Positions 1 to 55,624 of a stretch of 64,000 nucleotides of DNA are shown here, piece after piece. This DNA is from Panulirus ornatus (Eukaryota > Arthropoda > Malacostraca > Decapoda > Palinuridae), in NCBI RefSeq assembly GCF_036320965.1, contig NC_092235.1, positions 2,478,028 to 2,542,027 on the forward strand, written 5' to 3'. The notes under the pieces were generated by a model. That model was given only the letters and a program-made list of their open reading frames with translations. It was not told the origin of the DNA and did no database searches. Each line of letters begins with the position of its first letter. Positions within the stretch are counted from its first letter, which is position 1. A program made the translations under genes and the position numbers.

Positions 1-124
1 GTAAATAAAGTATACAAGTAATGGGAGTGTGTGTTTGTGGTGGTAGTGGGTGGGTGTGTTAAGCGTGGAAAGGAAGGCCTGTTAAAGTCCTTTTTTGTAG
101 ACTGGAGGTTTGAAAACGGGATTT

Positions 125-380
125 AACGGGCCTCGGTGCCTCTATATATGGTGAAATACGTGCTTGCCATTGGTTGACAATGATCTACCAATGAGAGGGC
201 TGCATTTGATATAGTTTGATAAGTTGTAAGGATGAAATTCCTATGTATTGTTTGGGTTAGGTAAAGTAATCAAGTAATCTCGTCTTCGGTGGTGCGAGCG
301 CGTTTTGTGTACTAGCAGACACAAACTCCCTCCCTATTGGCTGAAGGAAAGCCATAAGCTCCGCCCACCCTGCCTCACTT
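125..380 (-). promoter_or_regulatory. CCAAT/TATA promoter-like block, left arm
   Basis: Mirror image of 55250-55500. On the minus strand the order is GC-box-like element, CCAAT, CCAAT, TATATA, pointing off the left edge of the window. The rest of 1-690 shows no gene. Confidence 0.33.
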
Positions 381-1158
381 GATCCGGATGAAGGTTGAAA
401 GGCAATTCTATACAATTATCTCTATGTATATAGGGAAAAAAGTAAAATATGATGGTGTCATAAGATAGAGCTTGCTGTGTTGTCTATGTTCCATAAGATA
501 CATACAAAGAAAAATGCACATTTCACAAAAAGCACACGATGATAGGCACAGAAGGTACAACTGCTACTTTTACGTCCATCTGACCCGGTATATATAAGAA
601 TGTTCCTATGTATACATCATCTTTTCTAGCCATTCGAGAAGGTTCTTGCTGCTCCTGTCTCGACCACGTGTTAACCACGTGGTTGATGGAGGATTAACCT
701 CCAGATCCCACGAAGAAAGAAGAAAGAAGACAGAAGACAGAAGACAGAAGACTGAAGAAAGAAGAGAGAAGAAAGAAGTGGATTGTAACGTTGCCTCCCG
801 CGTTGGTCCTTCCCGCGGGAGACCGTTACGGTGACGACGCCGGCAGGCTGTTCCCTCACCACCCTCGCTGCTCCCCACACCCCCGCGTTGCCTCCACTCC
901 ATCTTCACATCCTTTTTTATTTTCTTATATTTTATCATCCATCATCCATCTCTCGACCGTTTGGCTTGAGCAATCTCTACCCCAGCTTCCCCAACCCATT
1001 CTGGAAAACTCATTTTCCTGAGGAGTGGAGGCTGGAGTGGACCTGTTCTCACCTGACGGGGTGGAGACCCTCACACTATCTCTTACCTCTCCCCTACCTT
1101 GGACCGTCGAGCCTCCCTCACTCACGTTTTCTCGCACTAGGACACTGATGCCACCAAC

Positions 1159-2721
1159 ATGCCGCCCGACATACGTCTAAAATCCCTCAAAACTGATTGC
1201 CCCCCTCCTTCCACGTTCGAACTCCTGTCCATCGTCTTTAAGACCACTGAGATCCGTCCTACTAGGGTCATTCAATTCCCTCGAACAAATACCAGTTTAA
1301 GATTTGCTTGGGCAAATATAGTGATCTAGATAGAATCCTATCTAAGCCTCTCCTTGATGAACTAGCTAAAAAAAAACTACCAAATCGTTCAGGACCGCTG
1401 CCCCCTTCAAGCTAGATGTACTATTATTGCCTACAATGTTGATGACTCTATCTTGTCCCTCAGCCCTTCGGAGATTGTTGAAGCCATCAATGGTGAAAAC
1501 AATGACGTTAATGTCATCAACGTCTATAAACCGAATAACTCCAGATCAATAAAGATACAATGTTCAAACCCGACCGAGGCCGATCGCCTGCTCTCCCAGG
1601 GAGTCCTGTTCCCCATGATCTCTGTGCCAGCAAAATCCCTGAAGAAAGATGAACATCTCGACGTACAACAATGTTTCAAATGTCTGAAATACGGACATGA
1701 GACTAAGAACTGTAAAGAACCCCACCAAACCTGTAGTCAATGCGCGGAAACTGGTCATGGTTTTCGTGAGTGCAAGGTTCAGGCAGCGAAGTGTGTCAAC
1801 TGTAAAGGTAGACATGTTGCTGTATCTGGGCTGTGCCCACGTAGAAAGGAGCAACTCCGCGCAGTGCGTCAGGCACAAAAATCCAACTCACCTCCTTCCA
1901 CAAACCCTCACCTTTACGCAACAGTTGCTGCTGCTGCTGCTCCTCCCCCTGCCACCCAAGCTTCTCCTATCCCAACTACTAATTCTTCAGACCTCCTCAC
2001 CCTACAAGGTAGGATGCATGCGTGCTACCTAAAAGCGTCGTTCCTGAGCAGGGAAGATAAGTCGGAATTCATCAGAATTTTCGATTTGCTGCTTGCTCAT
2101 AACAACCTACCCAATGTACGAGCTCCACCTGAACTCCTCAGCTCCCCCGCCACCAACCATCCATCTCCGACCCCTGTCTCGTCCGCCACCCTGACCCCTA
2201 ACGAAAACGTATCCCAGGAGACCCCCAGTAACACTTCCAACTCTCCCCCAACTACTCAACCTGTCACCCTCCCAACTTCCAATACCCCCTCCGCACCCTC
2301 TAACACATCTCCATCCACAACCCCCCAACCCAACACCAGCAATCCTACTGTCTCTCCAAATACCGATTCCTCTCCCACCCCCACCGTCCCAACTTCCACC
2401 ACCACGACAGTTCCTCCCGATCATCCACACACCAATCCCCCCCTCCCCCCTTCCCCATCCCTCCGTCCAACCCCTAACCCTCCCAGAGGAGCCCCAGCAC
2501 CTGACCTTGCCGACACACCAGACAACCCACCAACGGTCAACCTCGACCTTCAAATTGTCGACAATGACCCTCTCCTCTCCCCTCTCCCCTCTCCTGACCC
2601 CTCAACAGATATATCCCGACCCAAGACTAGAAACATGATACACGTGAAACACTCAAACGGTTCGTCAACGGCATTCATCGACAACAGACACAGAAGGCCA
2701 ATAAACTTCCATAAATCGTAA
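1159..2721 (+). pseudogene. LINE ORF1 (Gag-like, CCHC zinc knuckles), frameshifted
   Basis: RNA-binding Gag-like protein of the LINE. The ATG at 1159 (MPPDIRLKSLK...) opens a frame lost near 1285 and again around a nine-A run (1368-1376). The long frame then runs to 2721. It has three knuckles in a row: CFKCLKYGHETKNC, CSQCAETGHGFREC and a third, C-x2-C-x3-H-x6-C. These are followed by a long Pro/Thr/Ser-rich low-complexity region (about 2120-2560). The role is known for this family: binding LINE RNA. The frameshifts mean this copy is probably dead. Confidence 0.8.
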
Positions 2722-2732
2722 AATGCTAAAAC

Positions 2733-5460
2733 GTGCGCAGCTATCACAATGACCGTCATCTGATTGCCACTCTCCTCGAAGGGAAGAGACCCGATGTTGT
2801 GATACTTAACATCACATGTATCACCAACGGATACAAAATTAGACATTGCGGGTATACATCACGACAGTCTCCAGACAGTAGACACGAGGGAGTCGCTATT
2901 CTCATACGCAACACCATCGAACACGAATACCTCGCCACCTCATGGCAATACGAACACTTTCTAGCAGGTAAGATAAACACAATACATGGCTTCATTATTT
3001 TCTGCACTACATACTCTCGACCCAACACTACCATTCCACTCCTTGATCTCTACACACTATTCAGTCACACACATATCCCAGTCTACCTTCTAGCTAACCT
3101 CAACGCCCAACACAGAACCTTCCACCACAACAGAAACAATTCTCATGGTGATGACTTACTCGCTTTATACTCTTACAAACGTCTTAACTTCCTAGGTCCT
3201 TACTTCTACACTGTCTTCACTGGCCAAGGAGGAAAAAGCAGACCTGATCTTGTCTTCTCCAACAGAGCCAGTAATTATCTTCATAATTTGCCATCTCCAG
3301 GACCACTGTGTGGTTCCGAACACATCCCTATCTTTCCTCATCTCTCGTCTAACCCTATCGTCGTCCCATCACCCTCACACTACCACTACAAAAGAGCAGA
3401 CTGGGAGAAATTCAAAGAGATTCTCTCCAACTGCACTTACACCACAAACTACGAAAATCACCCAATAACACTAATAGACAGCAGAAATAGAACATATACA
3501 CGAAACAATCATACAGGCAGCTGACGCCTTCTATCCCCAGATCTTCATTTACTTCAAGATACTCCTTCTTCCCTTCTTCCAAAACAACCAGACTCATCTC
3601 GTGCTACCGTCGACGCTTTGAGCAAAACAGATATCGTTTGGGCATAGTTCAGTGCGACTTCACATCCCTAAGAAACAACACACTCAACAGCCTTCTAGAA
3701 GACCAAAATAGAGACTGAAAATCTCTTATCACCACAACAGAACAACACCGAATCAAATCTCAAGAGTTTTGGAACAGAATCCGAAAGCTCAAAAGAATAC
3801 CAAAAAAGACTTTAATAGGCTAAATGACGACAACACTCTACACCATAACCCACAAGACATTGCCAACATTTGTCAAAAACTCTGGGAAGGTATCTTTCAC
3901 CCTCACCCCCCCCCCCCTCACCCTGTGGCGTACGAAAATACTCAAATTGTCACACAACACATACAAAACAGATCCAGTCACTTCTACACAGAACAGATCA
4001 TACACCTCCAATCGCTTTCACACAACCACCTTCTCACAACTCCAATAAGATCGAGCGAGGTCAAATTCCTCCTCCTCAAATCACCCAAAGTAGCTCCAGG
4101 TAATTCAGGCATTGGTTACCAGCTACTTACACATCTCCCTGAGAACACTATTAGAGTCATCACCTTCCTCTTCAACGTGGCACTAGCCTCTGGCTATTTT
4201 CCCGCGATCTTCAAAACTGCAACAACCATGATGATATCTAAACCCAACAAATCCAACAGAGACCCAGTGAACTACAGACCCATCAGCCTACTTGAGTCCA
4301 CTGGGAAGACATTTGAAAGAATCTTAAACAACAGACTTAGACAACACCTAACAAACAACAACCTACTCTCACACAAACAGTTTGGCTTTCATCAACATCG
4401 CTCCACACGAGATTAACTCAACATCATTATGAAGTACATAAAAACAACACGCGAACACACAAAATGACCGCACTCATCACAAAAGATGTTGAAAAAGCCT
4501 TTGACACCGTGTGGCACGATGGATTGAGGTTTAAACCAAGCACCCAATTCGAACTCCCACGACCCAACATTAAGCTTCTCTCTAACTATCTTAAGCAACA
4601 TAAAAACCCAAATCAATTACAGAAACAATTATACAAACTACTTCTTCCTTAATGCCGGTGTACCTCAAATCTCCGTGCTGGCCCCCACTCTCTACACACT
4701 CTACACAAATGATCTTCCCAATCCTATACACCTGGACTCCATCACTCTCCAATATGCAGATGATGTCACACAGCTAATCAGAGCCAGAACCCTCACACAC
4801 CTAATCAGCAAAACACAACAGGAAATTGACCACGTTTCGCTTTGGGAGTTAGAATGGAGGATTAGATAAAATCCTGCTGAATCCAACATATCATACTTTA
4901 ATGTACTTCAGAGGTACAACATAAGTAATGTTTACCTGCACTCCCGTATACACCGACATTTACCCATTCCCATCTCAAACACCAACACTGTCCTGGGTCT
5001 AAACTATGATGTACACCTGAGAATGAGCCGACATATTCAGTCTAAAGCGGCTATTGCGAGAGCGGAGCTCGCTAAATTGTATAGATTTAGAGAGGCGGAA
5101 TTCAAAACCAAATTGCACCTCTACAAAGCATTAATCCGACCACTTATCACTTAGGCCCCTTCAGCTCCTGAACTCGGAGCTTAATTTAACATCTGTGCAC
5201 TCCAAATCATTCAAAACAAAGCTCTACGTTGAGTTTTTAACATCAAATGGCACGAGTTCATCAGAAACACAAAACTTCACGATAGAGCACGAATCCCTCC
5301 TCTAAACATCTACTGGAGGATATTGTTTGAAAGACAAGTAGAACGATTTCAAATACATCATACTCACTGGATTGATTACTTCAACAATCTCCTGGGAATA
5401 GATCACCCAGGTAACATGTTCAATATACAACCTGGACAACATCCAGTGCCAATATATTAA
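2733..5460 (+). pseudogene. LINE ORF2 (endonuclease-reverse transcriptase), broken
   Basis: The frame starts VRSYHNDRHLIATLLEG and lacks an ATG at that point. The AP-type endonuclease (2733-3524) has a PDVVILN strand and a GSEHIPIF segment where other copies read GSDHIPIF, so the catalytic Asp of the SDH motif is changed. The reverse transcriptase follows in pieces: NYRPISLLE (about 4270), DVEKAFDTVWHDGL (about 4485) and QYADDVTQL (about 4750). Stops and frameshifts near 3524, 4416, 4869 and 5155 make it nonfunctional. The reading ends in PGQHPVPIY before a stop at 5458-5460. Confidence 0.8.
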
Positions 5461-5706
5461 AAACTAAAAACCTCTATAGATCTTGCTGCTAAGTCCGTGC
5501 GGGGAACGCCTTGGTAAAATCATTGTCGATCAGCCAGAGATACGATCCATCTCCTCCTATGTCATTAAAAAAAAAAGAAAAAAAAGCCCTCCACTCATCA
5601 TCTTTGCCCTACTTATCCTATTTTTCCTATGCAAGCTGGGTTAAGACCTGGCTCTTTCCCTCCCTCTAAAATTCACTTCCTCTAAGAATTGTTACTCTTT
5701 CCCTCC

Positions 5707-5709
<3 letters not shown>

Positions 5710-5802
<93 letters not shown>
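5710..5802. repeat. (CT)n microsatellite
   Basis: Near-perfect CT dinucleotide run of about 93 bp in the 3' UTR of LINE copy L1. The mirror (AG)n lies at 49847-49940. The tandem copy L2 has only a short CT stretch at the equivalent place (about 8412). Confidence 0.97.
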
Positions 5803-5805
<3 letters not shown>

Positions 5806-5845
5806 CCCGATCTTCCTTGGAAGGAACATTTCTATCATCGTCATT

Positions 5846-8460
5846 TTGGTTTGGACCTTACTTCCACACTGTCTTCACTGGCCTAGGGGGAAAAAGCCAG
5901 AACTGACCTTGTCTTCTCCAACAGAGACAGTAATTATCTTCAGAATTTCTTGTCTCCAGGACCCTAACCCTATCCTCGTCCCATCACCCTCACACTACCA
6001 CTACAAAAGAGCAGACTGGGGGAGCTTCAAAGACTCTCTCCAACTGCACTTACACCACAAACTACGAAAATCACCCAATAACACTAATAGACACAGAAAT
6101 AGAACATATACATGAAACAATCACACTAGCAGCTGACATTTCTATTCCCAAATCTTCATTTATCTCAAGATACTCCTTCTTCCTTTCTCCCAAAACAACA
6201 AGACTTCTCTCGTGCTATCGTCGACGCTTTGAACAAAACAGAAGTCGTTTGGGCCTAGTACGGTGGGACCTCACATCCCTACGAAACCACACACTCAACA
6301 GCCTTCTAGAAGACCACAGTAGACACTGGAAATCTCTCATCACTACAACAGAACAACACCGAATTAAATCTCCTCAAGAGTTTTGGAACAGAATCCGGAA
6401 ACTCAAAGGAATACCAAAAACAGACTTCAATCGGCTAAATGACGACAACACTCTACACCATAACCCACAAGACATTGCCAACATTTGTCAAAAACACTGG
6501 GAAGGTATCTTTCACCCTCACCCCCCTCACCCTCTGGCGTACGAAAACACTCAAATTGTCACACAACACATACAAAACAGATCCAGTCACTTCTACACAG
6601 AACAGATCATACACCTCCAATCGCTTTCACACGACCACCTTCTCACAACTCCCATAAGATCGAACGAGGTCAAATTCCTCCTCCTCAAATCACCCAAAGT
6701 AGCCCCAGGTAATTCAGGCATTGGTTACCAGCTACTTACACATCTCTCTAACAACACTATTAGAGCCATCACCTTCCTCTTCAACGCGGTACTAGCCTCT
6801 GGCTATTTTCCCGCGGCTTTCAAAACAGCAACAACCACAATGATACCTAAACCCAACAAATCCAACAGAGACCCAGTGAACTACAGACCCATCATTGTAC
6901 TTGAGTCCATTGGGAAGACATATGAAAGAATCATAAACAACAGACTTAGACAACACCTTACAAAAACAACAACCTACTCTCACACAAACAGTTTGGCTTT
7001 CATCAACATCGCTCCACACAAGATGAACTTAACATCATTACGAACTACATAAGAAACAACACGCGGACACACAAAATGACCGCACTAATCATCACAAAAG
7101 ATGTTGAAAAAGCCTTTGACACCGTGTGGCACGATGGATTGAGGTATAAACTAAGCACCCAATTCCAAGTCCCCCGACCCATCATTAAGCTTCTTTCTAA
7201 CTATCTTAGCAACAGAAAAACCCGAATCAAATACAGAAACATTTACTCAAACTACTTCTTCCTTAATGCCTGTGTACCCCAAGGCTCCGTGCTGGCCCCC
7301 ACTCTCTACACACTCTACACAAATGATCTTCCCAATCCTATACACCTGGACTCCATCACTCTCCAATATGCAGATGATGTCACGCAGCTAATCAGAGCCA
7401 GGACCCTCACACACTTAATCAATAGAACCCAACAGGAAATTGACCACGTTTCTCTCTGGGAGTTAAAATGGAGGATTAAAACAAATCCTGCAAAATCCAA
7501 CATATCCTACTTTAATGTACGTCAGAGATACAACGTAACTAATGTCTACCTGCACTCCCGTATACATCGACATTTACCCATTCCCATCTCAAACACCAAC
7601 ACTGTCCTTGGCCTAAACTATGATGTACACCTGAGAATGAACCGACATATACAGTGTAGAGCGGCTATTGCGAGAGCGGAGCTCGCAAAATTGTATAGAT
7701 TCAGAGAGGCGCAATTCAAATCCAAATTGCACCTCTACAAAGCATTAATACGACCTCTTATCACATACGCCCCTTCAGCTCTGGAACTCGGAGCCAAATC
7801 CAACATCCGTGCACTCCAAATCATTCAGAACAAAGCTCTACGTTGGGTTTTTAACATCAAATGGCACGAGTTCATCAGGAACACAGAACTTCACGAGACA
7901 GCACGAATCCCTCCTCTAAACATCTACTGGAGGATATTGTTTGAAAGACAAGTAGAGCGATTTCAAATACATCATACTCACTGGATTGATTACTTCAACA
8001 ATCTCCTGGGAATAGATCACCCAGGTAACATGTTTAATATACAACCTGGACAACATCCAGTGCCAATATATTAAAAAACTAAAAACCTATATAGATCTTG
8101 CTGCTAAGTCCGTGCGGGAAACGCCTTGGTAAAATCAGTGTCCATCGGCCAGAGATACGATCCATCTCCTCCTGTATCCCTTATAAAAATGAAAATGAAA
8201 AAGTAAAAAAGAAAGTAAATAAGTAATACAAAAAATAAAATAAAATAAATTGATAAAGAAATGGATATTAAAAAAGATAACTTAAATGAAACTTTGCCCT
8301 CCACTCATCATCTCCGCCCTTCTTAACCTATTTTTCCAATGCAAGCTGGGTTAAGCCTGGCTCTTTTCCTCCCTCTAAAATTCACTTCCTCTAACAATTC
8401 TTGCTCTTTCCCCCCCTCTCTTTTCCTGCCCCTCCTTGGAAGGGACTTATCTATCATCAT
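5846..8460 (+). mobile_element. Jockey-like LINE, 5'-truncated tandem copy L2
   Basis: Starts abruptly inside the endonuclease coding region (TTGGACCTTACTTCCACAC) right after the 3' UTR of L1 and runs through RT, stop (8072-8074) and the same 3' UTR, ending near 8456. The dimer occurs in both inverted arms, so it formed before the arms separated. 8460-8650 is otherwise unremarkable. Confidence 0.8.
6249..8074 (+). pseudogene. LINE ORF2 fragment (linker and reverse transcriptase), one frameshift
   Basis: Two long frames, 6249-7052 and 7076-8074, are separated by a frameshift in an A/C-rich stretch near 6960-7030. The first has the EN-RT linker and RT fingers (NYRPI). The second has DVEKAFDTVWHDGL (RT motif A), a VPQGSVLAPTLYTLYTND block (motif B) and QYADDVTQL (motif C, catalytic DD), then the thumb and C-terminal region ending PVPIY. 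It is better preserved than L1 but cannot give full-length ORF2. Confidence 0.8.
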
Positions 8461-8656
8461 TATTGGTTCATTGGCATCACAGGCGGCAGCGTCAGCTAGC
8501 ACATCCACCTTATAAAATGAATGAAACTTAAAATATGGATTTATGAATTGCTTTTTATTAAGAGAAACTCTGCAAAGACAAAGAAGACCTGGGGACGCGA
8601 GGGGAGGAGGTAGTTGCCAGATACCGCGATATTTGTCCAAAACATTTTGCAGACTA

Positions 8657-8717
8657 TGACGTCACTACTTGAGGCAATGTACCTGCTGGAGTGATGACGT
8701 CATGGAGGTTGACGTCA
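8657..8717. promoter_or_regulatory. Cluster of three perfect CRE sites (TGACGTCA)
   Basis: TGACGTCA occurs at 8657-8664, 8695-8702 and 8710-8717; the second overlaps the A of the ATG at 8702. This palindrome is the classical CREB/ATF binding site. The cluster is kept on the other arm (mirror about 46898-46958). No TATA box is visible. Confidence 0.6.
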
Positions 8718-8918
8718 CCAGGTGTGTTGTAGCTGGAGTATTGTTAGTGTTGTGGCAGGTGAGCCTCATCAGCCACCCACAGTGGTTCACTACCATCCTG
8801 GATGGTGGTCAAAATATAGTCAACAATATTAGTAATGATGGCGTTATTTTAGGTGACATTAATGGCGGCGGCTGTATTGGCGACTCATATAATGTGAGAG
8901 AAGTTGTCTTATGCTCAC
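8702..8918 (+). CDS. Putative first coding exon with signal peptide, left arm
   Basis: An open 72-codon segment from ATG 8702 to a good splice donor (CAC|GTGAGT at 8919). Residues 1-24 look like a signal peptide: a short N-terminus with Arg, then VVAGVLLVLWQVSLIS. The rest is Asn/Gly/Asp-rich (NNISNDGVILGDINGGG). The same frame, ATG and donor are kept on the right arm with a single substitution (His/Gln) inside the 72 codons. Three CRE sites sit at its 5' end. I do not recognise the product, and no following exon was found before the satellites begin at about 9122. It could also be chance conservation between recent duplicates. Confidence 0.35.
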
Positions 8919-9121
8919 GTGAGTACCTGACCTTGTTCAAATGACAATGTTAATATATCATTATCATCATGATCATCATCATGTATGTGTAGTGATGATG
9001 ATGATGATGAACATTAATGATGGTGTAAACATGACCCAGAAAGATGGGCCAGGAAGATGATGGCTATTAGACACATTGGTTGTGGCAAGAAATATTGTGG
9101 ACACCAAGTTAGCGTTGTAAG

Positions 9122-9645
9122 ATGGGACACCTGCACTCACACCCACCCACCCAGGCTGACCTGCACTCACACCCACCCAGGCTGACCTGCACTCACACCC
9201 ACCCACCCACCCAGGCTGACCTGCACTCACACCCACCCAGGCTGACCTGCACTCACACCCACCCACCCACCCAGGCTGACCTGCACTCACACCCACCCAC
9301 CCACCCAGGCTGACCTGCACTCACACCCACCCACCCACCCAGGCTGACCTGCACTCACACCCACCCACCCACCCAGGCTGACCTGCACTCACACCCACCC
9401 ACCCACCCACCCACCCACCCAACCCACCCACCCAGCCAACCAGCCAGCCACCCAGCCAGCCATATAACTGACCCCCAGACAGCCACCCACCCACCCACAT
9501 AACTGACCCCAGCCACCCAGCCAGCCACCCAGCCAGCCACCCACATAACTAACAGCCACCCAGCCACCCAGCCAGCCAGCCACCCAGCCACCCACATAAC
9601 TAACAGCCACCCAGCCACCCACCCAGCCACCCAGCCACCCAGGGT
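9122..9645. repeat. CCCA-rich minisatellite, left arm
   Basis: Tandem units combining AGGCTGACCTGCACTCACAC with variable numbers of CCCA, giving 28-36 bp periods to about 9410. CCAGCCAGCCACC-type units with TAACTGACC or TAACTAACAG spacers follow. It is about 520 bp against about 1,860 bp on the right arm. The long readable frames in it come from the absence of stops in the unit. Confidence 0.95.
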
Positions 9646-9857
9646 GAGCCACATAACATGTAGCAGAGGAGGATGGTACAGCTGGTGTAGTAGGTCGACC
9701 AGCTGCTCTCCTTCTGGCAGCTGGTCGTTTTCTGTGATGAGAAAACGTTCTCTACTTACGGGCGCCCCGTACAGCAGCAGGTCAGGTTGGGCCACAATGC
9801 TCTACCCTGAGCCGGATCCATTTGACCTGGTCGTGCACGACAACTGCCCCATCCACA
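9646..9857 (-). other. Conserved non-satellite segment between arrays, left arm
   Basis: About 210 bp of complex sequence between two satellites, kept on the other arm at 44405-44614. On the minus strand it reads AQPDLLLYGAPVSRERFLI and onward through a Leu/Glu-rich stretch, but the frame is broken near 9798 relative to the right copy. It could be an exon remnant. No family was recognised. Confidence 0.35.
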
Positions 9858-10018
9858 GGTGTGGGTGGGTGGGTGGGTGGGTCGGTGGGTCGGTGGGTCG
9901 GTCGGTCGGTCGGTCGGTCGGTCGGTGGGTGGGTGGGTCGGTGGGTGGGTGGGTGGGTGGGTGGGTGGGTGGGTCGGTCGGTCGGTGGGTGGGTGGGTGG
10001 TGGGTGGGTGGGTCGGGG
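9858..10018. repeat. (GGGT/CGGT)n array
   Basis: Tetranucleotide run of GGGT and CGGT, about 160 bp. The right arm has only about 45 bp (near 44370-44413). Confidence 0.95.
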
Positions 10019-10136
10019 TGTTAAGGTGTGGTTTGAGCCCCACTGGGCAATGTTGCCCCGCCCACCAACCACATCCCCTCCCTGACCTACCTGACCTGCC
10101 CTGACCTGACCTGACCTGAACCCCACTGAACATGAA

Positions 10137-10890
10137 TCCAGACTTGCCACACCATGTCATCACTGATGATGATGACGTCAACACCACCACATCATGACGT
10201 CATCATCATCATCATGTCATCACTGATGATGACGTCAAACACCACCACATCACACTTGTTGACGTCATCATCATCATGATGTCATCAGTGATGAGGGTCA
10301 ACACCACCACCATATCACACTTGCTGACGTCATCATCATCATCATCATCATGTCATCACTGATGACGTCAACACCACCACATTACATTTGCTGGCGTCAT
10401 CATCATCATCATCATGTCATCACTGATGACGTCAACACCACCACTTGACACTTGCTGACGTCATCATGATGTCATCAGTGATGACGTCAACACATGACAC
10501 TTGGTGACGTCATCATGATGTCATCAGTGATGAGGTCAACACCACATGACACTTGGTGACGTCGTCATGATGTCATCAGTGATGAGGTCAACACAACATG
10601 ACACTTGGTGACGTCATAATGATGTCATTAGTGATGAGGTTAACACCACATGACACTTGGTGACGCCATCATGATGATGTCATCAGTGATGACGTCAACA
10701 CATGACACTTGGTGACTGCATCATCATGATGTCATCAGTGATGAGGTCAACACCACATGACACTTGGTGACGTCGTCATGATGTCATCAGTGATGAGGTC
10801 AACACACATCACACTTGTTGACGTCATCATCATCATGATGTCATCAGTGATGAGGTCAACACCACATGACACTTGGTGACGTCGTCATGA
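10137..10890. repeat. CRE-like minisatellite, left arm
   Basis: Units of about 55-65 bp built from GACGTCATCATCATGATG, TCATCAGTGATGAGGTCAAC and ACCACATGACACTTGGTGAC. Many units carry TGACGTCA or one-base variants, and the TCATCA/TGATGA pairs make each unit partly self-complementary. The right arm keeps about two units (44130-44245). Short (GACCT)n and (TCC)n runs flank it at 10080-10125 and 10960-10995. Confidence 0.9.
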
Positions 10891-11108
10891 TGGTAGTCTT
10901 GTGTTGATGATCAGGTCAGGTCAGGTCAGGTCAGGTTTGGTGGCTGGCTGATTCTAAATATGGCCTCCTCCTCCTCCTCCTCCTCCTCCTCCTCCGTTGT
11001 TCTCTGGTGATGGAGATATGATGATATAATTACATACAACATACCATCATTATTGTGGCATCAAGAGAAATGGCTTCCTACAAGTAGCATTGGTTGATTT
11101 ACGATGAA

Positions 11109-11139
<31 letters not shown>

Positions 11140-11182
11140 CATCCACAGATAATGGTGACGGTGACGAGCCCAACCTAGAAAG

Positions 11183-14865: not shown

Positions 14866-14965
14866 TATTCCGCGATATATTCCTGGCAGCCTCTCACGTC
14901 TGCCTCCTCCACCCCAGCAAGACCCACACAACTTTTTTGTCGGAGTCGTTCAGGTCCGTCAACTT

Positions 14966-39365: not shown

Positions 39366-39369
<4 letters not shown>

Positions 39370-43847: not shown

Positions 43848-44129
43848 CTTTCTAGGTTGGGCTCGTCACCGTCACCATTATCTGTGGATGTCATCATCAT
43901 CATCATCATCATCATCATTTCATCGTAAATCAACCAATGCTACTTGTAGGAAGCCATTTCTCTTGATGCCACAATAATGATGGTATGTTGTATGTAATTA
44001 TATCATCATATCTCCATCACCAGAGAACAACGGAGGAGGAGGAGGAGGAGGAGGAGGAGGCCATATTTAGAATCACCCAGCCACCAAACCTGACCTGACC
44101 TGACCTGACCTGATCATCAACACAAGACT

Positions 44130-44245
44130 ACCATCATGACGACGTCACCAAGTGTCATGTTGTGTTGACCTCATCACTGATGACATCATGATGACGTCAG
44201 CAAGTGTCATGTGGTGTTGACGTCATCACTGATGACATGAGGGCC
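44130..44245. repeat. CRE-like minisatellite, right arm (two units)
   Basis: About 115 bp matching two units of the 10137-10890 array in reverse complement, with TGACGTCA at the unit starts. It is probably close to the unexpanded ancestral state. Confidence 0.9.
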
Positions 44246-44404
44246 ACTATGATGGCTGTTGTGTGGCAAGTCTGGATTCATGTTCAATGGGGTTCAGGTC
44301 AGGTCAGGTCAGGTCAGGGATGTGGTTGGGGGCAACATTCCCCAGTGGGGCTCAAACCACAACTTAACACCCCGACCCACCCACCCACCCACCGACCCAC
44401 CGAC

Positions 44405-44614
44405 CCACCCACACCTGTGGATAGGGCAGTTGTGGACGACGAGGTCAAATGGCTCCGGCTCTTGGTTGTGGCCCAACCTGACCTGCTGCTGTACGGGGCG
44501 CCCGTCAGTAGAGAACGTTTTCTCATCACAGAAAACGACCAGCTGCCAGAAGGAGAGCAGCTGGTCGACCTGCTACACCAGCTGTACCATCCTCCTCTGC
44601 TACATGTTATGTAG
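44405..44614 (+). other. Possible exon-like open segment, right arm
   Basis: Open frame ending at a TAG at 44612-44614 with complex composition: VKWLRLLVVAQPDLLLYG, then APVSRERFLITENDQLPEGE, then QLVDLLHQLYHPPLLHVM. It is flanked on both sides by simple satellites. The left arm has a small indel that breaks this frame. I do not recognise a domain. It could be a coding remnant or chance. Confidence 0.3.
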
Positions 44615-44620
44615 CTCACC

Positions 44621-44621
<1 letters not shown>

Positions 44622-44652
<31 letters not shown>

Positions 44653-46482
44653 GTGGGTGGGTGGGTGGGTGGGTGGCTGTTAGTTATGTGGGTGGGTGGG
44701 TGGCTGGCTGGCTGGGTGGCTGGCTGGGTGGCTGGCTGGCTGTTAGTTATGTGGGTGGGTGGGTGGGTGGGTGGGTGTGAGTGCAGGTCAGCCTGGGTGG
44801 GTGGGTGGGTGTGAGTGCAGGTCAGCCTGGCTGGGTGGGTGGGTGTGAGTGCAGGTCAGCCTGGGTGGGTGTGAGTGCAGGTCAGCCTGGGTGGGTGGGT
44901 GAGTGTGAGTGCAGGTCAGCCTGGGTGGGTGGGTGGGTGTGAGTGCAGGGCAGCCTGGGTGGGTGGGTGGGTGTGAGTGCAGGTCAGCCTGGGTGGGTGG
45001 GTGTGAGTGCAGGTCAGCCTGGGTGGGTGGGTGGGTGTGAGTGCAGGTCAGCCTGGGTGGGTGGGTGGGTGTGAGTGCAGGTCAGCCTGGGTGGGTGGGT
45101 GTGAGTGCAGGTCAGCCTGGGTGGGTGGGTGGGTGTGAGTGCAGGTCAGCCTGGGTGGGTGTGAGTGCAGGTCAGCCTGGGTGGGTGGGTGGGTGTGAGT
45201 GCAGGTCAGCCTGGGTGGGTGTGAGTGCAGGTCAGCCTGGGTGGGTGGGTGGGTGTGAGTGCAGGTCAGCCTGGGTGGGTGGGTGGGTGTGAGTGCAGGT
45301 CAGCCTGGGTGGGTGTGAGTGCAGGTCAGCCTGGGTGGGTGGGTGGGTGTGAGTGCAGGTCAGCCTGGCTGGGTGGGTGGGTGTGAGTGCAGGTCAGCCT
45401 GGGTGGGTGTGAGTGCAGGTCAGCCTGGGTGGGTGGGTGGGTGTGAGTGCAGGTCAGCCTGGGTGGGTGGGTGTGAGTGCAGGTCAGCCTGGGTGGGTGG
45501 GTGGGTGTGAGTGCAGGTCAGCCTGGGTGGGTGGGTGAGTGTGAGTGCAGGTCAGCCTGGGTGGGTGGGTGGGTGTGAGTGCAGGGCAGCCTGGGTGGGT
45601 GGGTGGGTGTGAGTGCAGGTCAGCCTGGGTGGGTGGGTGTGAGTGCAGGTCAGCCTGGGTGGGTGGGTGGGTGTGAGTGCAGGTCAGCCTGGGTGGGTGG
45701 GTGGGTGTGAGTGCAGGTCAGCCTGGGTGGGTGGGTGTGAGTGCAGGTCAGCCTGGGTGGGTGGGTGGGTGTGAGTGCAGGTCAGCCTGGGTGGGTGGGT
45801 GTGAGTGCAGGTCAGCCTGGGTGGGTGGGTGGGTGTGAGTGCAGGTCAGCCTGGGTGGGTGGGTGGGTGTGAGTGCAGGTCAGCCTGGGTGGGTGGGTGG
45901 GTGGGTGTGAGTGCAGGTCAGCCTGGGTGGGTGGGTGGGTGTGAGTGCAGGTCAGCCTGGGTGGGTGTGAGTGCAGGTCAGCCTGGGTGGGTGGGTGGGT
46001 GTGAGTGCAGGTCAGCCTGGGTGGGTGGGTGGGTGTGAGTGCAGGTCAGCCTGGGTGGGTGGGTGGGTGTGAGTGCAGGTCAGCCTGGGTGGGTGGGTGT
46101 GAGTGCAGGTCAGCCTGGGTGGGTGGGTGGGTGTGAGTGCAGGTCAGCCTGGGTGGGTGGGTGGGTGTGAGTGCAGGTCAGCCTGGGTGGGTGGGTGTGA
46201 GTGCAGGTCAGCCTGGGTGGGTGTGAGTGCAGGTCAGCCTGGGTGGGTGTGAGTGCAGGTCAGCCTGGGTGGGTGGGTGGGTGGGTGTGAGTGCAGGTCA
46301 GCCTGGGTGGGTGTGAGTGCAGGTCAGCCTGGGTGGGTGGGTGGGTGGGTGTGAGTGCAGGTCAGCCTGGGTGGGTGGGTGGGTGTGAGTGCAGGTCAGC
46401 CTGGGTGGGTGGGTGGGTGTGAGTGCAGGTCAGCCTGGGTGGGTGTGAGTGCAGGTCAGCCTGGGTGGGTGGGTGTGAGTGC
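44622..46482. repeat. GGGT-rich minisatellite, right arm (expanded)
   Basis: Reverse complement of the 9122-9645 array, with the unit GTGAGTGCAGGTCAGCCTGG plus 2-5 GGGT. It has grown to about 1.86 kb. The number of GGGT steps per unit varies irregularly, as expected from replication slippage within unequal exchange. Confidence 0.95.
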
Positions 46483-46696
46483 AGGTGTCCCATCTTACAA
46501 CGCTAACTTGGTGTCCACAATATTTCTTGCCACAACCAATGTGTCTAATAGCCATCATCTTCCTGGCCCATCTTTCTGGGTCATGTTTACACCATCATTA
46601 ATGTTCATCATCATCATCATCACTACACATACATGATGATGATCATGATGATAATGATATATTAACATTGTCATTTGAACAAGGTCAGGTACTCAC

Positions 46697-46913
46697 GTGA
46701 GCATAAGACAACTTCTCTCACATTATATGAGTCGCCAATACAGCCGCCGCCATTAATGTCACCTAAAATAACGCCATCATTACTAATATTGTTGACTATA
46801 TTTTGACCACCATCCAGGATGGTAGTGAACCACTGTGGCTGGCTGATGAGGCTCACCTGCCACAACACTAACAATACTCCAGCTACAACACACCTGGTGA
46901 CGTCAACCTCCAT
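46697..46913 (-). CDS. Putative first coding exon with signal peptide, right arm
   Basis: Mirror of 8702-8918. It has the same ATG, hydrophobic leader and GTGAGT donor, with Gln for His after the leader. Downstream in its reading direction lies the expanded GGGT-rich minisatellite, which would be intronic if the exon is used. Confidence 0.35.
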
Positions 46914-47159
46914 GACGTCATCACTCCAGCCGGTACATTGCCTCAAGTAGTGACGTCATAGTCTGCAAAATGTTTTGGACAAATATCGCGGTATCTGGCA
47001 ACTACCTCCTCCCCTCGCGTCCACAGGTCTTCTTTGTCTTTGCAGAGTTTCTCTTAATAAAAAGCAATTCATAAATCCGTATTTTAAGTTTTATTCATTT
47101 TATAAGGTGGATGTGCTAGCTGACGCTGCCGCCTGTGATGCCAATGAACCAATAATGAT

Positions 47160-49795
47160 GATAGATGAGTCCCTTCCAAGGAGGGGCAGGAAAAGAGAGT
47201 GGGGAAAGAGCAAGAATTGTTAGAGGAAGTGAATTTTAGAGGGAGGAAAAGAGCCAGGCTTAACCCAGCTTGCATAGGAAAAATAGGTTAAGAAGGGCGG
47301 AGATGATGAGTGGAGGGCAAGGTTTTATTTTGTTTATCTATTTATTCATTTTTTTTTATCACTTTATGTTATTTTATTTTTCTGCATTTTTTTATTTTTA
47401 TTATTCATTTATTTATTTTTTTTTTTTCAAGGGATACAGGAGGAGGTGGATCGTATCTCTGGCCGATGGACACTGATTTTACCATGGCGTTTCCCGCAGG
47501 GACTTAGCAGCAAGATCTATAGAGGTTTTTAGTTTTTTAATATATTGGCACTGGATGTTGTCCAGGTTGTATATTAAACATGTTACCTGGGTGATCTATT
47601 CCCAGGAGATTGTTGAAGTAATCAATCCAGTGAGTGTGATGTATTTGAAATCGCTCTACTTGTCTTTCAAACAATTTCCTCCAGTAGATGTTTAGAGGAG
47701 GGATTCGTGCTCTCTTGTGAAGTTCTGTATTCCTGATGGACTCGTGCCATTTGATATTAAAAACCCAACGTAGAGCTTTGTTCTGAATGATTTGGAGTGC
47801 ACGGATGTTGGATTTGGCTCCGAGTTTGAGAGCTGAAGGGGCGTATGTGATAAGAGGTCGTATTAATGCTTTGTAGAGGTGCAATTTGGTTTTGAATTGC
47901 GCCTCTCTGAATCTATACAATTTTGTGAGCTCCGCTCTCGCAATAGCCGCTCTAGACTGTATATGTCGGTTCATTCTCAGGTGTACATCATAGTTTAGGC
48001 CCAGGACAGTGTTGATGTTTGAGATGGGAATGGGTAAATGTCGGTGTATACGGGAGTGTAGGTACACATTAGTTATGTTGTATCTCTGACGTACATTAAA
48101 GTAGGATATGTTGGATTTTGCAGGATTTGTTTTAATCCTCCATTTTAACTCCCAGAGAGAAACGTGGTCAATTTCCTGTTGGGTTCTATTGATTAAGTGT
48201 GTGAGGGTTCTGGCTCTGATTAGCTGTGTGACATCATCTGCATATTGGAGAGTGATGGAGTCCAGGTGTATAGGATTGGGAAGATCATTTGTGTAGAGTG
48301 TGTAGAGAGTGGGGGCCAGCACGGAGCCTTGGGGTACACCGGCATTAAGGAAGAAGTAGTTTGAGTAAATGTTTCTGTATTTGATTCGGGTTTTTCTGTT
48401 GCTAAGATAGTTAGAAAGAAGCTTAATGGTGGGTCGTGGGAGTTGGAATTGGGTGCTTAGTTTATACCTCAATCCATCGTGCCACACGGTGTCAAAGGCT
48501 TTTTCAACATCTTTTGTGATGAGTGCGGTCATTTTGTGTGTCCGCGTGTTGTTTCTTATGTAGTTCATAACGATGTTAAGTTCATCTTGTGTGGAGCGAT
48601 GTTGGTGAAAGCCAAACTGTTTGTGTGAGAGTAGGTTGTTGTTTGTAAGGTGTTGTCTAAGTCTGTTGTTTGTGATTCTTTCATATGTCTTCCCAATGGA
48701 CTCAAGTAGGCTGATGGTCTGTAGTTCATGGGGTCTCTTGGATTTGTTGGGTTTAGGTATCATTGTGGTTGTTGCTGTTTTGAAGACCGCGGGAAAATAG
48801 CCAGAGGCTAGTGCCACGTTGAAGAGGAAGGTGATGGCTCTAATAGTGTTGTCAGGGAGATGGGTAAGTAGCTGGTAACCAATGCCTGAATTACCTGGGG
48901 CTACTTCGGGTGATTTGAGGAGGAGGAATTTGACCTCGTTTGATCTTATGGGAGTTGTGAGAAGGTGGTCGTGTGAAAGCGACTGGATGTGTATGATCTG
49001 TTCTGGGTAGAAGTGACTGGATCTGTTTTGTATGTGTTGTGTGACAATTTGAGTGTTTTCGTACGCCAGAGGGTGAGGGGGGTGAGGGTGAAAGATACCT
49101 TCCCAGTGTTTTTGACAAATGTTGGCAATGTTTTGTGGGTTATGGTGTAGAGTGTTGTCGTCATTTAGCCGATTGAAGTCTGTTTTTGGTATTCCTTTGA
49201 GTTTCCGGATTCTGTTCCAAAACTCTTGAGGAGATTTAATTCGGTGTTGTTCTGTTGTAGTGATGAGAGATTTCCAGTGTCTACTGTGGTCTTCTAGAAG
49301 GCTGTTGAGTGTGTGGTTTCGTAGGGATGTGAGGTCCCACCGTACTAGGCCCAAACGACGTCTGTTTTGTTCAAAGCGTCGACGGTAGCACGAGAGAAGT
49401 CTTGTTTTGGGAGAAAGGAAGAAGGAGTATCTTGAGATAAATGAAGATTTGGGAATAGAAATGTCAGCTGCTAGTGTGATTGTTTCATGTATATGTTCTA
49501 TTTCCGTGACTATTAGTGTTATTGGGTGATTTTCGTAGTTTGTGGTGTAAGTGCAGTTGGAGAGAATGTCTTTGAAGTTCCCCCAGTCTGCTCTTTTGTA
49601 GTGGCAGTGTGAGGGTGATGGGACGAGGATAGGGTTAGAAGAGAGATGAAGAAAGATAGGGATGTGGTGGGAACCACACAGTGGTCCTGGAGACAAGAAA
49701 TTCTGAAGATAATTACTGGCTCTGTTGGAGAAGACAAGGTCAGGTCTGGCTTTTTCCCCCTGGGCCAGTGAAGACAGTGTGGAAGTAAGGTCCAA
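47160..49795 (-). mobile_element. Jockey-like LINE, 5'-truncated tandem copy R2
   Basis: Right-arm counterpart of L2. Its 5' end joins the 3' UTR of copy R1 at about 49797. The 3' UTR runs to about 47160 and includes an A/T-rich stretch (47320-47430) that differs from the left arm. Confidence 0.85.
47537..49795 (-). pseudogene. LINE ORF2 (part endonuclease, full reverse transcriptase), 752 codons open
   Basis: The best-preserved Jockey-like ORF2. It starts inside the endonuclease (about 49795), keeps the CGSHHIPIF segment (SDH reads SHH, Asp lost), the linker, RT motif A (TKDVEKAFDTVWHDGL), motif B (AGVPQGSVLAPTLYTLYTND), motif C (LQYADDVTQL), and ends PGQHPVPIY at 47537. Around 48710-48740 two compensating indels replace the NYRPI block with a short scrambled stretch. 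The missing endonuclease N-terminus makes it non-autonomous. Confidence 0.85.
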
Positions 49796-49840
49796 ACCAA
49801 AATGACGATGATAGAAATGTCCCTTCCAAGGAAGATCGGG

Positions 49841-49943
<103 letters not shown>

Positions 49944-50189
49944 GGAGGGAAAGAGCAACAATTGTTAGAGGAAGTGAATTTTAGAGGGAGGAAAAGAGCC
50001 AGGTCTTAACCCAGCTTGCATAGGAAAAATAGGATAAGTAGGGCAAAGATGATGAGTGGAGGGCTTTTTTTTCTTTTCTTTTTAATGATATAGGAGGAGA
50101 TGGATCGTATCTCTGGCTGATGGACGCTGATTTTACCAAGGCGTTCCCCGCACGGACTTAGCAGCAAGATCTATAGAGGTTTTTAGTTT

Positions 50190-52910
50190 TTAATATATTG
50201 GCACTGGATGTTGTCCAGGTTGTATATTAAACATGTTACCTGGGTGATCTATTCCCAGGAGATTGTTGAAGTAATGAATCCATTGAGTATGATGTATTTG
50301 AAATCGCTCTACTTGTCTTTTAAACAATTTCCTCCAATAGATGTTTAGTGGAGGGATTCGTGCTCTATCGTGAAGTTTTGTGTTTCTGATGAACTCGTGC
50401 TATTTGATGTTAAAAACTCAACGTAGAGCTTTGTTTTGAATGATTTGGAGTGCACAGATGTTAAATTAGGCTTCGAGTTCAGGAGCTGAAGGGGCCTAAG
50501 TGATAAGTGATCGTATTAATGCTTTGTAGAGGTGCAATTTGCTTTTGAATTCCGCCTCTCTAAATCTATACAATTTCGCGAGCTCCGCTCTCGCAATAGC
50601 CGCTTTAGACTGAATATGTCGGCTCATTCTCAGGTGTACATCATAGTTTAGGCCCAGGACAGTGTTGGTGTTTGAGATGGGAATGGGTAAATGACGGTGT
50701 ATACGGGAGTGCAGGTAAACATTACTTATGTTGTATCTCTGACGTACATTAAAGTATGATATGTTGGATTCAGCAGGAGTTTATCTAATCCTCCATTCTA
50801 ACTCCCAAAGCGAAACATGGTCAATATCCTGTTGTGTTTTGCTGATTAGGTGTGTGAGGGTTCTGGCTCTGATTAGTTGTGTAAAATCATCTGCGTATTG
50901 GAGAGTGATGGAGCCCAAGTGTATAGGATTGGGAAGATCATTTGTGTAGAGTGTGTAAAAAGTGGGGGCCAGCACGGAGATTTGAGGTACACCGGCATTA
51001 AGGAAGAAGTAGTTTGTATAATTGTTTCTGTATTTGATTCGGATTTTTATGTTGCTTAAGATAGTTAGAGAGAAGCTTAATGATGGGTCGTGGGAGTTGG
51101 AATTGGGTGCTTGGTTTATACCTCAATCCATCGTGCCACACGGTGTCAAAGGCTTTTTCAACATCTTTTGTGATGAGTGCGGTCATTTTGTGTGTCCGCG
51201 TGTTGATTTTATGCAGTTTATAATGATGTTAAGTTCATCTTGTGTGGAGCGATGTTGATGAAAGCCAAACTGTTTGTGTGAGAGTAGGTTGTTGTTTGTT
51301 AGGTGTTGTCTAAGTCTGTTGTTTAAGATTCTTTCACATGTCTTCCCAATGGACTCAAGTAGGCTGATGGGTCTGTAGTTCACTGGGTCTCTTTTGGATT
51401 TGTTGGGTTTAAATATCATTGTGATTGTGGCAGTTTTGAAGACCGCGGGAAAATAGCCAGAGGCTAGTGCCACGTTGAAGAGGAAGGTGATGGCTCTAAT
51501 AGTGATGTCAGGGAGATGGGTGAGTAGCTGGTAACCAATACCTGAATTACCTGGGGCTACTTTGGGTGATTTGAGGAGGAGGAATTTGACCTCGTTCGAT
51601 CTTATGGGAGTTGTGAGAAGGTGGTCGTGTGAAAGCAATTGGATGTGTATGATCTGTTCTGGGTAGAAGTGACTGGATCTGTTTTGTATGTGTTGTGTGA
51701 CAATTTGAGTGTTTTCGTACGCCAGAGGGTGAGGGGGGGTGAGGGTGAAAGATACCTTCCCAGAGTTTTTGAAAAATGTTGGCAATGTCTTGTGGGTTAT
51801 GGTGTAGAGTGTTGTCGTCATTTAGCCTATTAAAGTCTGTTTTGGTATTCTTTTGAGCTTTCGGATTCTATTCCAAAACTCTTGAGATTTGATTCGGTGT
51901 TGTTCTGTTATGGCGATAAGAGATTTTCAGTGTCTATTTTGGTCTTCTAGAAGGCTGTTGAGAGTGTGGTTTCTTAGGGATGTGAAGTCGCACTGAACTA
52001 TGCCCAAACGATATCTGTTTTGCTCAAAGTGTCGACGGTAGCACGAGATGAGTCTGGTTGTTTTGGAAGAAGGGAAGAAGGAGTATCTTGAAGTAAATGA
52101 AGATCTGGGGATAGAAATGTTAGCTGCCTGTATGATTGTTTCGTGTATATGTTCTATTTCTCTGCCTATTAGTGTTATTGGGTGATTTTCGTAATTTGTG
52201 GTGTAAGTGCAGTTGGAGAGAATCTCTTTGAATTTCTCCCAGTCTTCCCTTTTGTAGTGGTAGTGTGAGGGTGATGGGACGAGGATAGGGTTAGACGAGA
52301 GATGAGGAAAGATAGGGATGTGGTCGGAACCACACAGTGGTCCTGAAGATGGCAAATTCTGAAGATAATTACTGGCTCTGTTAGAGAAGACATGATCAGG
52401 TCTGCCTTTTCCTCCTAGGCCAGTGAAGACAGTGTGGAAGTAAGGTCCAAGGAAGTTAAGACGTTTGTAAGAGTATAAAGCGAATAAGTCATCACCATTA
52501 GAATTGTTTCTGTTGTGGTGGAAGGTTCTGTGTTGGGTGTTGAGGTCAGCTAGAAGGTAGACTGGGATATGTGTATGATTAAATACTGTGTAGAGATCAA
52601 GGAGTGGAATGGAAGTGTTGGGTCGAGAGTATGTAGTGCAGAAGATAATGAAGCCATGTATTGTGTTTATCTTAACTGCTAGAAAGTGTTGGTATTGCCA
52701 TGAGGTGGCGAGGTATTCGTGTTCGATGGTGTTGCGTATGAGAATAGCGACTCCCTCGTGTCTTCTGTCTGGAGACTGTCGTGATGTATACCCGCAATGT
52801 CTAATTTTGTATCCGTTGGTGATACATGTGATGTTAAGTATCACAACATCGGGTCTCTTCCCTTCGAGGAGAGTGGCAATCAGATGACGGCCATTGTGAT
52901 AGCTGCGCAC
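50190..52910 (-). pseudogene. LINE ORF2 (EN-RT), right arm, broken
   Basis: The endonuclease (51927-52910) is fully open for 327 codons with PDVVILN, ADLNTQHRTFH and CGSDHIPIF (intact SDH-type motif). RT frames follow at 51183-51821, 50998-51186 and 50781-50975, interrupted by frameshifts near 51850, 51210, 51060 and 50985. QYADDFTQL (motif C) is readable near 50900. The stop is at 50190-50192. Confidence 0.8.
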
Positions 52911-53004
52911 GTTTTAGTATTTTACGATTTATGGAAGTTTATTGGCCTTCTGTGTCTGTTGTCGATGAAGGCCGTTGACGCACCGTTTGAGAGTTTCACG
53001 TGTA

Positions 53005-54481
53005 TCATGTTTCTAGTCTTGGGTCGGGATATATCTGGTGAGGGCTCAGGAGAGGGGAGAGGGGAGGGGAGAGGGTCATTGTCGACAATTTGAAGGTCAA
53101 GGTTGACCGTTGGTGGGTTGTCTGGTGTGTCGGCAAGGTCAGGTGCTTGGGCTCCTCTGGGAGGGTTAGGCTCCGGACGGAGGGAGGGGGAAGGGGGAGG
53201 GGGGGATAGGTGAGTGGAGGTTCAAGGGGAACTGTCGTGATGGTGGAAGTTGGGACGGTGGGGGTGGGAGAGGAATCGGTATTTGGAGAGACAGTAGGAT
53301 TGTTGGTGTTGGGTTGGGGGGTTGTGGATGGAGTTGTGTTAGAGGGTGCGGAGGGGGTACTGGAAGTTGGGAGGGTGACAGGTTGAGTAGTTGGGGGAGA
53401 GTTGGAAGCGTTACTGGGGGTCTCCTGGGATACGTTTTCGTTAGGGGACAGGGTGGCGGACGAGACAGGGGTCGGTGAGGGATGGTTGGTGGCGGGGGAG
53501 GTGAGGAGTTCAGGTGGAGCTCGTACATTGGGTAGGTTGTTATGAGCAAGCAGCAAATCGAAAATTCTGATGAATTCCGACTTATCTTCCCCGCTCAGGA
53601 ACAACGCTTTTAGGTAGCACGCATGCATCCTACCTTGTAGGGTGAGGAGGTCTGAAGAATTAGTAGTTGGGATAGGAGAAGCTTGGGTGGCAGGGGGAGG
53701 AGCAGCAGCAGCAACTGTTGTGTAGAGGTGAGGGTTTGTGGAAGGAGGTGAGTTGGATTTTTGTGCCTGACGCACTGCGCGGAGTTGCTCCTTCTTACGT
53801 AGGCACAGTCCAGATACAGCGACGTGTTCACCTTTACAGTTAACACACTTCGCTGCCTGAACCTTGCACTCACGAAAACCATGACCAGTTTCCAAGCATT
53901 GACTACAGGTTTGGTGGGGTTCTTTACAGTTCTTAGTCTCATGTCCGTATTTCAGACATTTGAAACATTGTTGTACGTCGAGATATTCATCTTTCTTCAG
54001 GTATTTTGCTGGCACAGAGATCATGGGGAACAGGACTCCCCGGGAGAGCAGGCGATCGGCCTCGGTCGGGTTTGAACATTGTATCTTTATTGATCTGGAG
54101 TTATTCGGTTTATAGACGTTGATGACATTAACGTCATTGTTTTCACCATTGATGGCTTCAACAATCTCCGAAGGGCTGAGGGACAAGATAGATGCATCAA
54201 CATTGTAGGCAATAATAGTACATCTAGCTTGAAGGGGGCAGCGGTCCTGAACGATTTGGTAGTTTTTTTTTAGCTAGTTCTTCAAGGAGAGGCTTAGATA
54301 GGATTTTATCTAAATCACTATCTTTGCTCAAGCAGATCTTAAACTGGTATTTGTTCGAAGGGAATTGAATAACCCTAGTAGGACGGATCTCAGTGGTCTT
54401 AAAGACGATGGCCAGGAGTTCGAACGTGGAAGGAGGGGGGCAATCAGTTTTGAGGGATTTTAGACGTATGTCGGGCGGCAT
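53005..54481 (-). pseudogene. LINE ORF1 (CCHC zinc knuckles), right arm
   Basis: ATG at 54479-54481. The frame is broken only at the nine-A run (about 54268-54276), then open to 53005. Three intact knuckles: CFKCLKYGHETKNC, CSQCLETGHGFREC and C-x2-C-x3-H-x6-C, followed by a Pro/Thr/Ser-rich tail. One frameshift separates this copy from an intact ORF1. Confidence 0.8.
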
Positions 54482-55249
54482 GTTGGTGGCATCAGTGTCC
54501 TAGTGCGAGAAAACGTGAGTGAGGGAGGCTCGACGGTCCAAGGTAGGGGAGAGGTAAGAGATAGTGTGAGGGTCTCCACCTCGTCAGGTGAGAACAGGTC
54601 CACTCCAGCCTCCACTCCTCAGGAAAATGAGTTTTCCAGAATGTGTTGGGGAAGCTGGGGTAGAGATTGCTCAAGCCAAACGGTCGAGAGATGGATGATG
54701 GATGATAAAAGATAAAAAATAAAAAAGGTATGTGAAGATGGAGTGGAGGCAACGCGGGGGTGTGGGGAGCAGCGAGGGTGGTGAGGGAACAGCCTGCCGG
54801 CGTCGTCACCGTAACGGTCTCCCGCGGGAAGGACCAACGCGGGAGGCAACGTTACAATCCACTTCTTTCTTCTCTCTTCTCTCTTCTGTATTCTTTCTTC
54901 TTTCTTCTTTCTTCGTGGGATCTGGCGGTTAATCCTCCATCATCCACGTGGTTAACACGTGGCTGAGACAGGAGCAGCAAGAACCTTCTCGAATGGCTAG
55001 AAAAGATGATGTATACATAGGAACATTCTTATATATACCGGGTCAGATGGACGTAAAAGTAGCAGTTGTACCTTCTGTGCCTATCATCGTGTGCTTTTTG
55101 TGAAATGTGCATTTTTCTTTGTATGTATCTTATGGAACATAGACAACACAGCAAGCTCTATCTTATGACACCATTATATCTTACTTTTTTCCCTATATAC
55201 ATAGAGATAATTGTGAAAAATTGCCTTTCAACCTTCATCTGGATCAAGT

Positions 55250-55500
55250 GAGGCAGGGTGGGCGGAGCTTATGGCTTTCCTTCAGCCAATAGGGAGGGAG
55301 TTTGTGTCTGCTAGTGCATAAAACGTGCTCGCACCACCGAAGACGACATTACCTAATTACTGATACCTAACCCAAAAATACATAGGAATTTCACCCTTAC
55401 AACTTATCAAACTATATCAAATGCAGCCCTCTCATTGGTAGATCATTGTCAACCAATGGCAAGCACGTATTCCATCATATATAGAGGCGCCCAGGCCCGT
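55250..55500 (+). promoter_or_regulatory. CCAAT/TATA promoter-like block, right arm
   Basis: Reading rightward there is a GC-box-like GGGCGGAGC near 55259, CCAAT boxes near 55285 and 55454, and TATATATAG near 55478. The spacing is right for a core promoter pointing out of the arm. No coding region was recognised immediately downstream: a LINE 3' fragment starts at about 55621. Present on both arms. Confidence 0.35.
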
Positions 55501-55624
55501 TAAATCCCGTTTTCAAACCTCCAGTCTACAAAAAAGGACTTTAACTGGCCTTCCTTTCCACACTTAACACACCCACCCACTACCACCACAAACACACACT
55601 CCCATTACTTGTATACTTTATTTA

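Follow-up and report, generated by a model that had tools for sequence, protein, structure and literature searches.

Two arms of about 13 kb lie in mirror orientation in a 64,000-nucleotide stretch of Panulirus ornatus chromosome 12 (C12:2478028-2542027, in a genome of 2.65 Gb; hereafter the window), and very probably they belong to a segmental repeat family that is dispersed through the genome of this lobster in high copy number; the mirror layout may come from the placement of one gap-bounded contig. We found that the family has many copies, that the arm (module B) is linked to a second module (A) carrying a tRNA-Val/tRNA-Ala pair and a protein kinase open reading frame (ORF), that its members occur on both strands, and that the contig with the left arm is bounded by scaffold gaps. 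Throughout, base p corresponds to C12:2478027+p, negative positions lie left of the window, and coordinates of the features are collected in Table 1. The assembly was made from PacBio continuous long reads (CLR) with Wtdbg2 and Flye and scaffolded with 3D-DNA (PMC11193758); its report gives lengths of 71,406,443, 31,614,801 and 16,587,605 bases for chromosomes 12, 42 and 70 (PMC11193758, Table 3) and counts 295 and 203 gaps in chromosomes 12 and 70, respectively.

The two arms and their relatives

A preliminary description of this DNA had proposed inverted collinear arms, and self-BLAST of the window bore this out in three blocks, each with E = 0: 2-9647 against 55624-45918 (94.5% over 9772 columns, minus strand), 10781-11539 against 44238-43493 (96.4%) and 11630-12593 against 43745-42760 (95.7%). 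The break of the left arm at a 100-N run was seen as described. As to whether the homology continues left of position 1, which is only the window edge, comparison of the neighbouring DNA showed that it runs to -499 (= 56128), where an RTE-like long interspersed nuclear element (LINE) starts in the left copy; the full arms thus measure about 13.1 kb (left) and 13.4 kb (right), with about 30 kb between them. Counting substitutions alone, the arms differ by 3.64% in 2-5963, 3.12% in 5964-9120, 1.90% in 8250-9100, 1.02% in 10781-11284 and 1.54% in 11880-12593, that is, they are 96-99% identical, with numerous indels. The doubt already voiced that this divergence is too high for alleles proved justified, as the LINE half, at 3.1-3.6%, and even the remainder, at 1.0-1.9%, exceed the heterozygosity of 0.92% given for P. 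ornatus (PMC11193758). The two-copy picture, in contrast, had to be amended: the arms are real, but more than two copies are involved, because a third copy of the LINE lies in the window and further copies of a neighbouring module lie outside it.

A 694-bp piece at the inner end of the left arm matched 39 other places over its full length at 99-100% identity (best 40 of 348 candidates, self included), and the right arm was absent from these best matches. Over this piece, nine other copies show 3-9 substitutions relative to the left arm; the comparison with the right arm gives 11, together with about 24 extra base pairs. Longer comparisons with copies on chromosome 70 gave a similar result: distances from the left arm to two such copies are 1.41 and 1.70% in 8250-9100 (right arm 1.90%), to one copy 1.53% in 6800-9100 (right arm 3.54%), and 1.00 and 1.29% in block 42760-43480 (right arm 1.58%). 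In both blocks compared within 6800-9100, each arm is nearer to some chromosome 70 copy than to the other arm. The family thus has what defines a segmental duplication, namely a length of at least 1 kb and more than 90% identity at more than one site (PMC2566985).

The order of the modules is conserved as well. A followed by B in the same orientation was found in the window and at two places on chromosome 70. When the best 40 B copies were set against the best 132 of 1044 kinase candidates, 24 of the 40 had a kinase within 40 kb; in 21 of these, it lay 2.4-14.5 kb upstream, and among these matches order and strand agreed in every case (21/21). The remaining three are the left arm itself, whose kinase lies on the same strand but 25 kb away on the other side, and two copies with a kinase on the opposite strand at 30 and 40 kb, while 16 of the 40 B copies had no kinase among the matches listed. 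Genome-wide, the same 132 kinases are divided into 67 on the plus and 65 on the minus strand, and 58 neighbouring pairs share a strand while 56 are opposite, neighbours being adjacent within the listed best matches and not necessarily in the genome. Such neighbours lack the uniform orientation of a head-to-tail array, and since the strands of the family are mixed, inverted neighbours are to be expected.

The two- to seven-fold satellite differences between the arms noted earlier are genuine: the 23-bp array spans 594 bp on the left vs 247 bp on the right, an approximately 52-bp array about 740 vs 107 bp, and the 26/34-bp array is several-fold longer in the right arm. However, a motif scan of 11 family copies found the 23-bp array to range from 69 to 852 bp (598 and 251 in the two arms), so that a difference of this size is ordinary for the family.

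Several observations weigh against our interpretation, to which the loose meaning of adjacency given above must be added. In block 42760-43480, of the three other copies compared, the one closest to the right arm is the left arm, at 1.58% against 1.72 and 2.59%. A tree of the 694-bp piece with 11 rows supported none of its eight forks, and site patterns in quartets of copies tied (1/1/1 and 2/2/0). For the outer 6.7 kb or so of the arm (2-6782; 54627-56128), the 334 kb of DNA compared yielded no copy beyond the two arms; both chromosome 70 copies break off before reaching it, and the two arms may be more closely related in this part. Moreover, our copy listings consist of best matches ranked by closeness to the query and are therefore biased towards close copies. 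From these sequence comparisons we read the relatives of the arms as a star-like family, a pattern that proves no particular branching.

Gaps, orientation and alternative explanations

The left arm belongs to a contig of about 30 kb (-17404..12593) with a 100-N run at each end, and no contig at this locus joins a plus and a minus unit. All seven other copies compared extend beyond the last base of the left arm, to at least 42742, and four of them reach 42457-42238. The stop thus falls inside a near-identical, many-copy stretch, which is a likely cause of the assembly break. The mirror layout is probably nothing special and may reflect only the placement of one gap-bounded contig, although the two units may truly lie inverted to each other here.

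A related explanation, which concerns orientation only and is compatible with membership in a dispersed family, is that the left contig was mis-oriented within a head-to-tail array. On chromosome 12 the A copies at -23816, 31504 and 83456 are on the plus strand, with about 50.7 kb between 32763 and 83456, and the minus orientation occurs only on the gap-bounded contig, which, if flipped, would match the flanking A copies. Against this stand the mixed strands and neighbours of the listed kinases, which are not those of a head-to-tail array, and one N-free stretch of chromosome 70 that holds A copies in both orientations, so that real inversions may exist. We regard mis-orientation as possible but somewhat doubtful. 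The array itself, suggested by the four local A copies, was dropped in view of the mixed strands genome-wide.

The preliminary description had offered two further readings. One, a specific local inverted duplication in the form of a large palindrome-like repeat made by a single event, would account for a collinear, inverted pair of 13-kb arms that lie 30 kb from each other and share LINE insertions, and the chromosome 70 stretch demonstrates that inverted neighbours occur within contigs; however, by distance the arms are not each other's nearest relatives in most comparisons, the gaps beginning at 12594 and 31401 separate them, orientations in the family are near 50:50, and an identity of 96-99% with many indels (1.0-3.6% substitutions) is well below that of gene-converted, homogenised palindromes, all of which makes this reading improbable. 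The other, an inverted haplotig, with left contig and right arm as two alleles and the former reversed by scaffolding, draws on the gaps at both ends of the 30-kb contig, on the non-LINE parts, whose divergence is not far above heterozygosity, and on the outer LINE pair, common to both arms and found in neither chromosome 70 copy, but it is highly improbable given the divergence of the LINE half, the at least 39 other near-identical places of the inner arm, the closeness of both arms to chromosome 70 copies in the two blocks within 6800-9100, and the fact that the left contig, followed leftwards from B, reaches a further A module 5.5 kb on while the right contig does not.

On the favoured explanation, that of a dispersed repeat family, the members lie in extensive blocks of repeat-rich DNA on chromosomes 12, 70, 42, 8, 9, 43 and others, each unit consisting of A (tRNA-Val, tRNA-Ala, kinase) and then, on the same strand, B (LINE copies, satellites and an ORF from an uncharacterised family). 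Copies would have multiplied and scattered in both orientations, presumably by segmental duplication and exchange between repeat blocks, and then diverged by substitutions, LINE insertions and changes in satellite length. CLR assembly probably breaks at near-identical copies, hence the stop of the left arm at a gap, and Hi-C scaffolding would have fixed the orientation of the left contig, whether true or not.

The kinase and other genes in and near the unit

The kinase has its closest database relatives among lobster proteins, at 38-39% identity, and its frame is open in all five full copies in the compared DNA. Genome-wide, 132 copies scored from 1044 candidates cover residues 1 or 3 to 296 at 97-100% identity and lie on at least 12 numbered chromosomes; 130 of them have no in-frame stop and the other two carry one TGA each, though ranking by score favours intact copies. 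Among five copies, silent and replacing changes number 7 and 4 in the kinase core (residues 40-296; one-sided p 0.017), and 1 and 5 in the 39 residues ahead of it (p 0.87). These and the three tests below are small, one-sided and uncorrected.

A neighbouring repeated module encodes an RRM protein (PF00076, 1.2e-6; stretch L009:4577-5455), whose gene matched across all 879 bases in 40 of 40 scored copies (best 40 of 775 candidates); between two copies, 5 changes are silent and 13 replacing (p 0.61), which gives no sign of selection. Another ORF of the module shows a hint of RFX that stays below threshold (E 0.03; stretch L009:1197-2039, minus strand). This ORF, the RRM gene and the ORF at 60607-61320 are each open in the two copies compared, and two ORFs other than the RRM gene gave silent/replacing counts of 6/3 (p 0.02) and 8/8 (p 0.04). 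The protein of 60607-61320 had no relative at E<=0.001 in a protein search, and its structure, predicted from the protein alone, has a mean predicted local distance difference test score of 40.3. Among the matches listed, kinase and RRM copies occupy common blocks, which on chromosome 12 span 0.2-10.9 and 0.2-13.8 Mb; on chromosome 70 they take up much of the length, and on 8, 9 and 42 they lie near the ends. In the B module, the left-arm counterpart of the 165-residue frame is open across 127 residues within the 694-bp piece.

Table 1. Features of the window and of the DNA flanking it.
Feature	Position	Strand	Basis or remark
Left arm, B module, reversed relative to right arm	2..12593 (on to -499)	-	self-BLAST and flanking DNA
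Right arm, B module	42760..56128	+	self-BLAST and flanking DNA
A module	31504..39466	+	first ~1.26 kb is long terminal repeat (LTR) element sequence
A module, inverted copy	-6053..-14096	-	comparison with flanking DNA
A module, same-strand copies	-23816..-17506 and 83456..87650	+	comparison with flanking DNA
100-N scaffold gap, left-arm end	12594..12693	.	N run in sequence
100-N scaffold gap directly before A module	31401..31500	.	N run in sequence
tRNA-Val gene	34867..34940	+	anticodon varies among module copies
tRNA-Ala (GGC) gene	35487..35560	+	tRNA scan
Protein kinase ORF, 296 aa	37678..38568	+	PF00069, 3.5e-15
165-aa open frame, right arm	42947..43444	+	related to uncharacterised proteins, 89 database hits
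23-bp tandem array, left arm	11285..11878	.	repeat search
23-bp tandem array, right arm	43499..43745	.	repeat search
26/34-bp tandem arrays, right arm	44621..46475 (left counterpart 9140-9641)	.	repeat search
LINE (zinc-knuckle ORF1, endonuclease and reverse transcriptase pieces), right arm	50067..54627	-	left counterpart about 1013-5583, +
Second, shorter copy of that LINE, right arm	47412..49795	-	left counterpart 5851-8202
Third LINE copy	24556-26561		self-BLAST
238-aa ORF of neighbouring repeated module	60607..61320	+	second copy on chromosome 70

Some further observations were made on these elements. Unplaced contig C1261 carries, at about 6724-12517, two kinase blocks that are exactly mirrored (6724+12517 = 8445+10796), as are its satellites; it is a palindromic contig and perhaps a read artefact. 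Another, longer kinase frame (480 aa, PF00069 8.4e-16) lies in the same chromosome 70 region (stretch L020:6970-8409, minus strand). In all seven tRNA pairs the Ala gene has the anticodon GGC, and the Val gene has GAC (2), TAC (3) or CAC (2), three anticodons that vary in their first base; in animal nuclei, Ala-GGC and Val-GAC are unusual. Beside the tRNA pair, 35892-36011 resembles 5S rRNA (38.8 bits vs an Rfam threshold of 38), a match not reported in 11 other stretches scanned. RTE-like LINE copies are very dense in many places (e.g. stretch L032:4272-7274), some with frames of 1001 and 1073 aa, and RVT_1 was found in a LINE frame of stretch L016:6165-9383.

Known systems and biological meaning

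Like interspersed segmental duplications, the family forms long blocks of more than 90% identity at many sites on several chromosomes, as a mosaic of modules; unlike them, it exceeds 100 copies, is packed into few repeat-rich blocks and keeps the kinase intact in nearly every scored copy. With assembly false duplications and haplotigs (PMC9516828) it shares a duplicate bounded by scaffold gaps, but the copies are too many and the LINE half too divergent. Ampliconic regions, for example those of Y chromosomes (PMC8794474, PMC11168930), likewise hold many near-identical intact genes in repeat-rich DNA, whereas here at least 12 numbered chromosomes are involved and no high-identity palindromes were shown. 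Endogenous nimaviruses of crustaceans (PMC10871703) are also large multi-copy elements of decapods, sometimes with hundreds of copies, but our Pfam scans of selected frames, made without nimaviral profiles, turned up no viral gene, nimaviral core genes included. The same frames contained no transposase, no unit end was consistent across the copies compared, and the kinase and RRM protein had no relatives in viral contigs in scans that reach close relatives only. A search of titles and abstract openings found no mention of this family.

For the locus itself, an apparent giant palindrome or assembly duplicate becomes a high-copy family, and caution is called for with inverted repeats in gap-rich long-read scaffolds. 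The kinase, a by-product of the analysis, may matter more: 130 of 132 scored full-length copies are open, the copies lie in shared blocks of several chromosomes, and why so many stay intact is a testable question. One speculative answer, which we hold to be unlikely though worth stating, is that the arms lie in an amplified multigene compartment in which more than 100 kinases, the RRM gene and two ORFs are kept alive by selection or by an amplifying agent. If true, the compartment would be comparable to a selfish element that carries genes, or to a system of ampliconic drive, across many lobster chromosome ends.

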